Assembly (NCBI GenBank): GCA_904419785.1
Contig: CAJFSY010000005.1
Location: 94,404-158,403 of the forward strand
Reading direction: 5' to 3'
DNA: 64,000 nt
Origin: an uncultured Neglectibacter sp.
GTDB lineage: Bacteria > Bacillota > Clostridia > Oscillospirales > Acutalibacteraceae
This document shows positions 31,879 through 36,359 of this stretch, in pieces. Within the stretch, counting starts at the first letter, position 1; each line of letters starts with the position of its first letter. The position numbers were made by a program, and so were the translations under genes. The notes below the pieces were generated by a model that ran no database searches, had not been told where the DNA came from, and saw nothing but the letters and a program-made list of their open reading frames with translations.

Positions 31879-32937
31879 ATGGATTTACTTATGAAGGTTT
31901 TGATGAAGGGCAACGAGGCGCTGGCCGAAGCCGCGATCCGCGCCGGCTGCCATCATTTCTTCGGCTATCCCATCACGCCCCAGACAGAGCTGGCGGCTTA
32001 TATGTCCAAGCGTATGCCTCAGGTGGGCGGTACGTATTTGCAGGCGGAGTCTGAAGTGGCTGCTATCAATATGGTGCTGGGCGCCGCTTCCGCCGGTGTG
32101 CGCGCCATGACCTCTTCTTCCTCTCCCGGCGTCAGCTTGAAGGGCGAGGGAATCTCGTATATGGCCGGTTCCGATCTGCCCGCGGTGATCATCAATGTGC
32201 AGCGTGGCGGCCCTGGTTTGGGCGGCATCCAGCCTTCCCAGGCGGACTACTGGCAGGCTACCAAGGCTACCGGCCACGGCGATTTCCAGATCTTGGTATT
32301 TGCGCCCTCCACCGTGCAGGAGATGGTAGATCTGATCTCCCACGCGTTTGATACTGCCGACAAATACCGCATGCCCGCCATGATTCTGGCCGACGGTATG
32401 CTGGGCCAGATGATGGAGCCGGTATCTCTGCCGGAAGAAGGCTCTGCGAATCTGCCTGAGAAAGAATGGGCAGCCAAGGGCCACGGCGGCAAACGCGCCC
32501 ATAATATCATCAACTCCCTGTATCTGACTCCCGAGAAGTTGGAGCAGTTGGTAAAAGAGCGCTTTGAGCGCTATGAGACTGTAAAGAAAAACGAGCAGAT
32601 GGCGGAGGAATATCTTACCGAGGACGCAGACGTAGTGCTGGTTGCTTACGGAGCTTCTTCCCGCGTGGCTCGCAGCGCTGTGAACAAAGCCCGTGAAAAG
32701 GGCTTGAAAGCGGGTTTGGTACGTCCCATCACCCTGTGGCCGTTCCCCACGGACGCCCTTCAGCGGGCTGCCGCTCACGCCAAGAATTTCTTGGTAGTAG
32801 AGATGAGCATGGGCCAGATGGTAGACGACGTGAAGCTTGCAGTGGATTGCAAAGTGCCCGTCCACTTCTATGGCCGTACCGGCGGTATGATCCCCACGCC
32901 GGCGGATGTGTTGGCGCAGATCGAAGCGCTGCTGTAA
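31879..32937 (+). CDS. 2-oxoacid:ferredoxin oxidoreductase alpha subunit (VorB/KorA-like)
   Basis: GCHHFFGYPITPQTELAAYMS, TSSSSPGVSLKGEGISYMAGSDLPAVI. Confidence 0.93.
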   Translation: MDLLMKVLMKGNEALAEAAIRAGCHHFFGYPITPQTELAAYMSKRMPQVGGTYLQAESEVAAINMVLGAASAGVRAMTSSSSPGVSLKGEGISYMAGSDLPAVIINVQRGGPGLGGIQPSQADYWQATKATGHGDFQILVFAPSTVQEMVDLISHAFDTADKYRMPAMILADGMLGQMMEPVSLPEEGSANLPEKEWAAKGHGGKRAHNIINSLYLTPEKLEQLVKERFERYETVKKNEQMAEEYLTEDADVVLVAYGASSRVARSAVNKAREKGLKAGLVRPITLWPFPTDALQRAAAHAKNFLVVEMSMGQMVDDVKLAVDCKVPVHFYGRTGGMIPTPADVLAQIEALL

Positions 32938-32996
32938 CGACTGAGACTATAGGCCGGGGGAGGGGAAGTTCCCCGGCCGGAAAGGCGAATTGACTA

Positions 32997-33748
32997 TGGC
33001 TATTGTATTTCAAAAACCGTCTACCCTGACTGACGCGCCTATGCATTACTGTCCCGGCTGCACTCACGGCATCGTTCACCGCCTGGTGGCTCAGGCTTTG
33101 GAAGAACTGGGAGTGGAAGGCAAAACAGTGGGCGTGGCCTCTGTGGGCTGCTCGGTTATGTGTTATGATTATTTCTCCTGCGATATGGTGCAGGCTCCCC
33201 ATGGACGTGCCCAGGCTGTGGCTACGGGCTTGAAGCGCGCCCGTCCTGAGAACGTGATTTTTACATACCAGGGCGACGGCGACCTGGCGGCGATCGGTAC
33301 GGCGGAAACAGTCCATGCCGCTACCCGTGGCGAGAACATCACGGTCATCTTTATCAACAATGCCATTTATGGCATGACCGGCGGCCAGATGGCTCCCACA
33401 TCTCTGCCGGGACAGGTCACCCAGACCACTCCCTACGGCCGTGATACCAATACTGCCGGCTATCCTGTGCGGGTGTGCGAGATGCTCTCCACCCTGGACG
33501 GTGTGGCGTTTGCCCAGCGTGTTACCGTGGACAACGTGAAAAACGTGAACATTGCCCGGAAAGCCATTAAGAAGGCCTTCCAGAACCAGATCGACGGCAA
33601 AGGCTATTCCATTGTGGAAGTGCTTTCCACATGTCCCACCAACTGGGGCATGTCTCCCGTAGAGGCGCTCAAGTGGATGGAGGACAACATGATCCCCTAC
33701 TATCCGCTGGGCGTGTATAAGGACGTAGAGGAGGGCGTGAAGAAATGA
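32997..33748 (+). CDS. 2-oxoacid:ferredoxin oxidoreductase beta (TPP-binding) subunit
   Basis: YCPGCTHGIVHRL, QGDGDLAAIGTAETVHAA, NNAIYGMTGGQMAPTS; exact start uncertain (32990 frame). Confidence 0.92.
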
Positions 33749-34299
33749 AAAACCTGAATATCCTCTTTGCCGGATTCGGCGGCCAAGGCGTGCTGTTTGC
33801 CGGAAAGGTTGTGGCCTACGCCGCGTTGATCGCCAATAAGCAGCTTTCCTGGCTGCCCTCTTACGGCCCTGAAATGCGGGGCGGCACTGCCAACTGCAGC
33901 GTGTGCGTTTCCGATGAGGCCATCGGTTCTCCCTTGGTGACTAACCCCAACGTGCTTATCGCCATGAACCTGCCTTCCTTTGACAAGTTTATTGACGCGG
34001 TGGAGCCCGGTGGCGTGGTTATCGTCGATTCCAGCCTGATCGATAAGAAGGTAGAGCGTGACGACGTGACTGTTTACTATGTGCCTTCTTCCTCCTTGGC
34101 CGAGGAGAATGGCCTGAGCGGTTTGTCCAACATGATCTTGGTGGGCAAATTGTTCCAGTCGGTCTGCACAGCCGACGGCGATTACAAGTTCTGCGACGCC
34201 GATATTCTGGATCAAGCGGTGCAGAAGTGCATTCCCGCCCGCAAAGCCCAGATGCTGGACTTTAACCGCAAAGCTATCCAGCTGGGCGCGGAGCAGTAA
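33745..34299 (+). CDS. 2-oxoacid:ferredoxin oxidoreductase gamma subunit
   Basis: [33 protein letters not shown]. Confidence 0.92.
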
Positions 34300-34350: not shown

Positions 34351-34391
34351 TGCTTTCTGGGGATTGTCGCGGTATTATGAGAGAAAAGGAG

Positions 34392-35504
34392 ATGAACGAT
34401 ATGGAACTTATCAGCGAAGGAAAAGGAAACCCGATGCCGCTCCCCCAATGGAAAGTAACCTTTGAAGGGCAGTTTTTCACTGTTGGTAAGACGCGGGAAC
34501 CCAGCGGGAAGCCCCTGCCTTTTTCCGGGGAATTCGACTGGGCGGGCCGCCATTGGCTGGTGCCGGGGGTGTATTGCTGCCGGGAAGGCCTGGTGGTGGA
34601 TCTCTGCATGGAAGTGGACCCGGAAGAGCTGCGCGCTGTTCGGGACAAGTGGGACATTACCCCGGAAAACGACGATGAAAGCCAGTTTAGCCGGGAGAAG
34701 CTTATGGCCATCCAGGCGGAAAACCCCTTCCATTTTTTCTATTCTCTCCAACTGGTGGTCAATGGAAAGACCTTGGAGCGCAGCGGGGGCTGCGGTGTTT
34801 GTTACGCTCCTTTTGAAGGAGCCGTGGGAACAGACCTGGAAGCCCAATGGGTGGTGGAGCATTACCAGCTGGACAAGACCAAGGGCTGGTACTTGTGGCG
34901 GTGGGCATTCCCCTGGGCAAAGTCGGGAACAAGCGTAAAGGGCTTGCTGGTCCGGCTGGGCCTTCGGAAGTTGTTCACGTTGTCTTTGCGGCTTCACGGG
35001 GAACCAGCCCGTGTGCCCGGAAAGCCGTTCCAAGTAGGGGGGCCGGGGGATACAGCCCAGCTGGCAGACCCCACTACCGGGGAATGCTACACCCTCACCG
35101 TGGTGGAAAATGAAGCCAGCACACTGAACAGCGTGGTTCCCAAGGATATGCTGCCTGAAAATTGGGAATTTCCAAACCATTACCGGCAGCTTTCCTATAC
35201 GCTGGAGCCGGAACCGCCAAAGGGCTTTCTCACTCTCTGCGACCGGATGGATGGAGACCAGCCCCGCATAGGCGAGCCTTCGCAGTTGAAGAAGGCAACC
35301 AGGGGAGCAGGAGCCGCTTCCATTGGCATCATCGGCGGGGCGGACGGTCCCACTGCCATTTTTGTGTCAGGAAAGAGCGAATCCCAGCCTTACATGGCTG
35401 CTTCATCCTTCCATTTTGAGCCTGTGGAGAACGTCACCTGGCTGCCGGTGTTCCATAAACAGACGGCTGAGGATACCATGGTGGTGCTGAAAAAGAAATT
35501 GTGA
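34392..35504 (+). CDS. Hypothetical protein carrying an embedded OadB-like IGIIGGADGPTAIF peptide
   Basis: Long ORF; motif AASIGIIGGADGPTAIFVSGK near C-terminus; rest lacks TM-like stretches; start approximate. Confidence 0.75.
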   Translation: MNDMELISEGKGNPMPLPQWKVTFEGQFFTVGKTREPSGKPLPFSGEFDWAGRHWLVPGVYCCREGLVVDLCMEVDPEELRAVRDKWDITPENDDESQFSREKLMAIQAENPFHFFYSLQLVVNGKTLERSGGCGVCYAPFEGAVGTDLEAQWVVEHYQLDKTKGWYLWRWAFPWAKSGTSVKGLLVRLGLRKLFTLSLRLHGEPARVPGKPFQVGGPGDTAQLADPTTGECYTLTVVENEASTLNSVVPKDMLPENWEFPNHYRQLSYTLEPEPPKGFLTLCDRMDGDQPRIGEPSQLKKATRGAGAASIGIIGGADGPTAIFVSGKSESQPYMAASSFHFEPVENVTWLPVFHKQTAEDTMVVLKKKL

Positions 35505-35654: not shown

Positions 35655-36359
35655 GTGGCGACCGTGCTGACACAACTTTTAGACTTGTTATCCCATGTGT
35701 TCTATCTTTTTTTACACGTTACCGGAAACGGCACTTTTCCAAGGGCGCTTTCTGCTGCCCAGGAAAAAAAGTGCCTGGAAGAAATGGCCCAAGGTAGCCA
35801 AAGCGCCAGGCAAAAGCTCATCGAGCATAACTTGCGACTGGTGGCCCACATTATTAAGAAATATTACGCCAACCAAAACGATCAAGAGGATTTGATATCC
35901 ATAGGCACCATAGGGCTCATAAAAGCCATCGACACATTTGACGCGGAAAAGGGAATTCGGCTTTCCAGCTATGCCTCACGCTGTATTGAAAATGAAATCC
36001 TAATGTTCTTCCGCAGCGGGAAAAAATCTGCCCAGGACGTTTCACTCAACGAGCCCATTGACACGGACAAAGACGGCAACGCGCTGACCATTTTAGACAC
36101 TATGGCAGTGGACGACACCATTGTGGAAAATATCGATATCAAGATGAAAAGCGAAAAGCTGTATGGATATTTGCAGTCAGCTCTTACCCAGAGGGAACGG
36201 GAAGTGGTATGCCGGCGCTATGGCCTTTGCGGGTTCCGTCCACAGCCCCAGCGGGAAGTAGCCAAACGTCTGGGGATTTCCCGCAGCTATATTTCGCGCA
36301 TTGAGAAAAAAGCTTTGGAAAAGCTGCGCCGGGAGTTTGAGGCTGCGGAAAAGACCTGA
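35655..36359 (+). CDS. sigK: RNA polymerase sporulation sigma factor SigK (pro-form, uninterrupted)
   Basis: LTQLLDLLSHVFYLFLHVTGNGTFPRALS pro-region, RLVAHIIKKYY, GTIGLIKAIDTFD, region 4 HTH. Confidence 0.88.
   Translation: MATVLTQLLDLLSHVFYLFLHVTGNGTFPRALSAAQEKKCLEEMAQGSQSARQKLIEHNLRLVAHIIKKYYANQNDQEDLISIGTIGLIKAIDTFDAEKGIRLSSYASRCIENEILMFFRSGKKSAQDVSLNEPIDTDKDGNALTILDTMAVDDTIVENIDIKMKSEKLYGYLQSALTQREREVVCRRYGLCGFRPQPQREVAKRLGISRSYISRIEKKALEKLRREFEAAEKT

Follow-up and report, generated by a model that had tools for sequence, protein, structure and literature searches.

In OadB (PF03977), the beta subunit of the Na+-translocating decarboxylases (OadB/GcdB/MmdB family), Na+ binding requires Asp203 at the tip of a helical hairpin, H1, which meets a second hairpin, H2 (Ser382), mid-membrane and is buried inside the folded pump (PMC7274780). 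P0001, a protein encoded in the window (the whole 64,000-nucleotide stretch of DNA from an uncultured Neglectibacter sp. that was analyzed here), shares with OadB the H1 residues, including the Na+-binding Asp203 tip, but the 10-transmembrane (TM) scaffold, H2, and the Ser382 and Asn412 partners are all missing. OadG (PF04277) provides a second comparison: a small gamma-like protein at a second OadB of the genus bears the motif N-terminally in several congeners, but the canonical OadG rows inspected are without it, and P0001, in turn, is without a TM helix. LPXTG and GlyGly-CTERM sorting signals are likewise short conserved peptides in many unrelated, mostly envelope, proteins, although the peptide described here is not restricted to C-termini, is present at 1 to 3 copies per genome, tracks OadB, and has no dedicated enzyme found nearby. 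Rickettsia palindromic elements are in-frame insertions that place one peptide inside many unrelated proteins, but the peptide here lacks conserved or palindromic DNA, and its codons are scrambled. In the open-access papers searched, the GADGPT string does not occur, and no mention of short copies was found in the literature on the pump family.

The preferred reading, tentative and with a probability of roughly 0.4, is that the peptide may be a trans-acting mimic of H1 tied to the Na+ decarboxylase pump, with the pump's Na+-binding hairpin having been released as a module that hops among carriers, evolves together with the resident pump, and acts on it from the membrane surface, in either regulation or protection.

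P0001 and its OadB-like peptide

The OadB-like string noted in the sequence-only reading is present and in frame, as residues 308 to 328 of the open reading frame (ORF) at 34392-35504, although the end coordinate given for it was 2 bases short (Table 1). The protein is 367 aa long from the ATG at 34401 and 370 aa from the ATG at 34392, and the former is probably the true start, because the Shine-Dalgarno-like sequence stands 9 bases 5' of it. Genes for a 2-oxoacid:ferredoxin oxidoreductase (31879-34299) lie directly 5' of P0001, with related oxidoreductase genes also 5' of its orthologs in L005, L006, L009, and L010, and a sigma-70-like factor ORF (35655-36359) follows it. Three P0001-family members (L322, L328, and L143) have an additional N-terminal domain (FGWTGVDGIHFCFIRGFGGMVFSVSPMN...).

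Table 1. Positions of the P0001 gene, its peptide, and adjoining signals in the window
Feature	Position	Strand	Basis
P0001 carrier protein (soluble, without known fold)	34401..35504	+	AlphaFold2, Foldseek
OadB-H1 portable peptide AASIGIIGGADGPTAIFVSGK	35313..35375	+	Pfam, phmmer, family alignment
Asp318 codon, equivalent of the OadB H1-tip Na+-binding Asp203	35343..35345	+	6iva alignment; PMC7274780
Predicted disordered loop (residues 296-331) displaying the peptide between two beta strands	35277..35384	+	pLDDT <50
Shine-Dalgarno-like AAAAGGAG before the likely start	34384..34391	+	Sequence
Terminator-like CCCCAGGTGTTCCTTGGGG plus T5, between the 2-oxoacid:ferredoxin oxidoreductase-like genes and P0001	34325..34348	+	Read by eye

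The Pfam OAD_beta profile matches P0001 at residues 307 to 330 only (E = 3.6e-6; 26.7 bits, with a cut-off of 31.6), over profile positions 111 to 134, and phmmer aligns residues 308 to 343 with the solved OadB 6iva (E = 5e-4), with identity limited to the peptide; both bear out the proposed resemblance to a conserved OadB segment. The GGADGPT tip (residues 315 to 321) is present with its Asp203 equivalent, and the peptide is identical to the OadB of its own genome at 16 of 21 residues. That genome codes for GGADGPT at three places (OadB, P0001, and a large protein ending in SAVIIGGADGPTNIYTTP) and for a backward control pattern at none, and by a rough composition estimate only ∼0.0015 chance IGGADGPT octapeptides are expected in six frames; with the OAD_beta match, these rule out chance similarity. 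The possibility that P0001 is a divergent OadB is also ruled out, as the match covers only 24 of the 349 profile positions. The rest of the protein is soluble and without other OadB features, as had been suggested: no TM helix is predicted by a simple hydropathy and positive-inside predictor, and the AlphaFold2 model, a check that the sequence-only reading had proposed, shows a folded domain rich in beta structure, and the peptide falls in a low-confidence loop. A Foldseek search of the PDB with this model found no relative.

Copies of the peptide outside OadB

Approximately 100 copies were found outside OadB in Clostridia, in carriers of ∼30 Pfam families, which agrees with the earlier suggestion of a portable peptide module with similar strings in clostridial ORFs. 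A scan of genome contigs for VIGGADGPT codons gave at least 119 loci; among the 120 motif ORFs in the matches listed, 91 encode proteins other than OadB, and nearly all loci are from Clostridia, including isolates of Faecalibacterium, Oscillibacter, Lacrimispora, and Schaedlerella, with many of the genomes being metagenome-assembled genomes (MAGs). Invariance of the core among these carriers is built in by the search design, and searches without a forced core also recovered the variants GGSDGPT, GGADGAT, and GGPDGPT. Among 90 carriers, matches to 30 Pfam families were found, including HAAS, Peptidase_M56, XRE-type HTH, PlsY, Cu_amine_oxidN1, barnase-type RNase, LGT, PGA_cap, CDP-OH_P_transf, cyclophilin, signal peptidase II, SBP_bac_3, Rhodanese, and GtrA, and they range over lipoproteins, membrane-bound regulators, M56 sensors, PlsY, PgsA, Lgt, LspA, and RNases. 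Sixty-eight of the 90 also match OAD_beta (E of 0.001 or better) though they are not pumps, and such short matches are a misannotation risk. Selected genomes have 1 to 3 copies on differing carriers, and the two non-OadB copies of the P0001 genome are those in P0001 and the large protein.

The genes neighboring the carriers include normal partners (PadR with HAAS and MecI-like with M56) and a large generic cluster resembling ABC transporters; within these immediate neighborhoods, no family recurs beside unrelated carriers, and no paired receptor/effector genes were seen. A phage origin was considered and set aside, as most GGADGPT matches in a scan of viral contigs were due to chance and stood in other contexts, and a few were true carriers of [IV]IGGADGPT. 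Tandem peptide arrays are found at L010, L011, L194, and L245, each with one or two intact copies together with decayed ones (for example, VIGSADGSTEII and IGVLGEADGPTAT). A cytosolic-looking family (...HTLDEVxxYI...YGVTEEDI...; L116, L121, L189, the C-terminus of L184, and L499) starts with the peptide, and a Pfam search with it found no family; in L184, it is fused behind Lgt.

Conservation at the protein level

In 14 members of the P0001 family, eight core residues are invariant and the linkers are variable (mean column identity of 32%), and every core position uses 2 to 4 codons. A query without the motif found eight orthologs, six of which have the peptide intact (two of these with an extra decayed tandem copy), and the remaining two retain remnants, SIGIIGGA in one and VIGII in the other; the concern that close orthologs might lack the motif altogether was thus not borne out. 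The ortholog at L007 (genome G012), a locus including a run of N, has lost the core despite the presence of OadB, which counts against a pump mimic. The conserved stretch is sharply bounded (about −5 to +13), and position +14, a Leu in 54 of 54 OadB rows, is Leu in about 6% or less of the copies.

Codon identity of the core to the resident OadB is 0.502, compared with 0.477 in GC3-blocked permutations (176 of 3,000 as high), and one copy/OadB pair shares 18 of 19 residues but only 5 of 18 codons. Because codons do not follow the residue match, the likeness to the resident OadB is not attributable to recent copying of DNA, and these comparisons leave a DNA-level element unsupported. The other OadB hairpin, H2, serves as a control: all 61 of its matches (32 genomes) are inside OadB and it is never portable, which rules out a general duplication of OadB pieces. 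The copies are conserved at the protein level, with selection acting on protein and not on DNA. Duplication of part of the OadB DNA into other genes, neutral or occasional, or else insertion of a selfish element, would fit the sporadic distribution, the restriction of copies to genomes with OadB, and the decayed copies and tandem arrays (L007, L012, L010, L011, and L194). However, it is already largely refuted and is very improbable, given that H2 is never copied, that conservation ends at the hairpin edge, and that codons are scrambled with residues kept over the 14 diverged P0001 relatives.

Alternating hydrophobic strands flank the Gly-rich turn of the peptide, a pattern expected of a homotypic self-assembly element (strand-turn-strand or amyloid-like), which could act in either compartment and would suit any carrier. 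This is quite unlikely, in that conservation is higher in the turn than in the strands, paired receptor-effector genes are not seen in the neighborhoods, and both the resemblance to the resident OadB and the dependence on it would be left unexplained.

Predicted membrane sidedness

In the OadB of the P0001 genome, the TM helix after H1 terminates in KALTTKEDRRIRMK, and so by the positive-inside rule, H1 would enter from the extracytoplasmic side. The topology of 102 carriers was predicted with the same simple predictor as for P0001, and it places the copy outside the membrane in 75 of them (about three-quarters): 12 predicted lipoproteins with the copy soon after the lipobox Cys and 63 predicted TM proteins, 59 with the copy 45 residues or less from a TM helix. 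Most carriers are thus predicted to put the copy outside and near the membrane, on the same side from which H1 enters OadB. Of the others, 21 are predicted to be soluble, mainly the P0001 and L189 families, and six to have the copy inside, though we regard just one of these, Lgt (L184), as convincing. P0001 appears to be cytosolic, as do at least three more carrier families; this is the wrong side for docking to the H1 entry face and argues against a pump mimic. Copies are mostly between TM helices, after a lipobox Cys, or N-terminal, with a few C-terminal and followed by a TM helix and a basic tail.

These positions could also reflect a linear recognition signal (a processing, sorting, or posttranslational modification site) with a putative envelope reader, the likeness to OadB being ancestry only. 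Many copies adjoin a lipid anchor or TM helix, L170, L176, and L037 have C-termini of the motif-TM-positive-tail type, the conserved stretch is sharply bounded, and in P0001 the peptide is in an exposed disordered loop. Nonetheless, this is doubtful, as there are just 1 to 3 copies per genome and on both membrane sides, no gene family turns up repeatedly next to unrelated carriers, and a fixed reader would not predict variable residues that track the resident OadB, as described below.

Relationship of copies with the resident OadB

At 10 variable positions, copies agree with the OadB of their own genome at a mean of 4.91, compared with 3.46 ± 0.18 when genome labels are permuted (67 copies and 56 genomes; 0 of 5,000), although this match may come in part from shared ancestry or lineage founder effects, as the permutations take no account of phylogeny. 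With OadBs that have Ala after the core (the larger OadB group) the values are 4.46 and 3.81 (0 of 5,000), and with those that have Ser they are 5.62 and 5.41 (190 of 5,000).

Among 118 genomes of the class, an extra short match is present in 35 of 93 with OadB compared with 1 to 2 of 25 without it (Fisher P = 0.0005 to 0.003), with matches counted up to E of 1 such that some are chance, and with the co-occurrence only moderately informative because OadB is common in the class. Of the two OadB-less genomes with a short match, the match is weak in one and the other genome is 75% complete, and those OadB-less genomes that were searched with a profile of the peptide gave no convincing match. OadB, or at least a fragment of it, is present in each of the 62 genomes reached through copies; in G373, the piece is limited to a match of 26 residues within a frame of 84 aa. 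Only one of 23 relatives tested, G053 (97% complete), is without OadB, and the core is lost from the P0001 ortholog of that genome, which reads VIGIISPASQ. The copies therefore seem to occur only where the pump exists; beyond what the sequence-only reading had proposed, most are predicted to be extracytoplasmic, and the copies track the resident OadB and seem to be absent where it is lacking.

The match to the resident OadB and the need for OadB would also be accounted for if the displayed copy were a decoy, titrating some outside agent directed against OadB H1, be it a bacteriocin, a phage, or a host factor, as would the low copy number, the sporadic spread, and the interchangeable carriers mostly outside the membrane. 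But the folded pump keeps H1 buried (PMC7274780), and the cytosolic carriers do not fit, making a decoy improbable. We also know of no agent that targets OadB H1.

A candidate role in pump function

The H1-mimic reading is favored by the match to the resident OadB, the scrambled codons, the co-occurrence, the core loss in G053, the gamma-like carriers described below, the sidedness, and the H2 control. The peptide would be a free-standing copy of the re-entrant hairpin H1, with its Na+-binding tip GGADGPT, turned into a portable module in Clostridia. It could dock to, or compete with, H1 in the beta subunit in trans, and this could regulate, assemble, or tether the pump. The displayed peptide rather than the carrier would matter, and carriers could therefore replace one another. 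The RNase, cyclophilin, and PlsY carriers, which are without an obvious Na+ pump link, stand against this reading, as do the cytosolic-looking carriers and the L007 ortholog. If correct, this would be a portable module of a new kind, one whose defining property is that it mimics the ion-binding hairpin of a transporter, and a catalytic pump element of ∼20 residues spreading under protein-level selection across ∼30 Pfam families would represent a new mode of protein evolution, possibly with an extra layer of control over sodium bioenergetics in gut anaerobes.

The motif on a gamma-like protein next to a second OadB

In six genomes of the genus (G001, G004, G005, G011, G020, and G027), the motif is at the N-terminus of a small gamma-like protein 3' of a second OadB, as the variant GGPDGPT in G004, and short motif matches adjoin the second OadB in G002, G006, and G026. 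In six others (G000, G003, G013, G021, G025, and G028), the motif is in P0001 and the gamma-like protein is present without it; among the genus genomes examined, the peptide is on the gamma-like protein or in P0001, but never both. In a tree of the second OadB, most P0001 genomes group together (98/96) with G028 apart, and the gamma-carried state is spread over the base. This looks like the transfer of one function to P0001 from a membrane protein linked to the pump, although the independent shifts are few in number. P0001 would then take the place of the gamma-like protein that bears the motif. Canonical OadG was rejected as the source, with the motif in none of 30 loci inspected, some of which were shown in the wrong frame. 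The second OadB of the genus (L327 and L481 to L496) has the H1 tip GAADGPT rather than GGADGPT, and the adjoining short protein often has the canonical GGADGPT.
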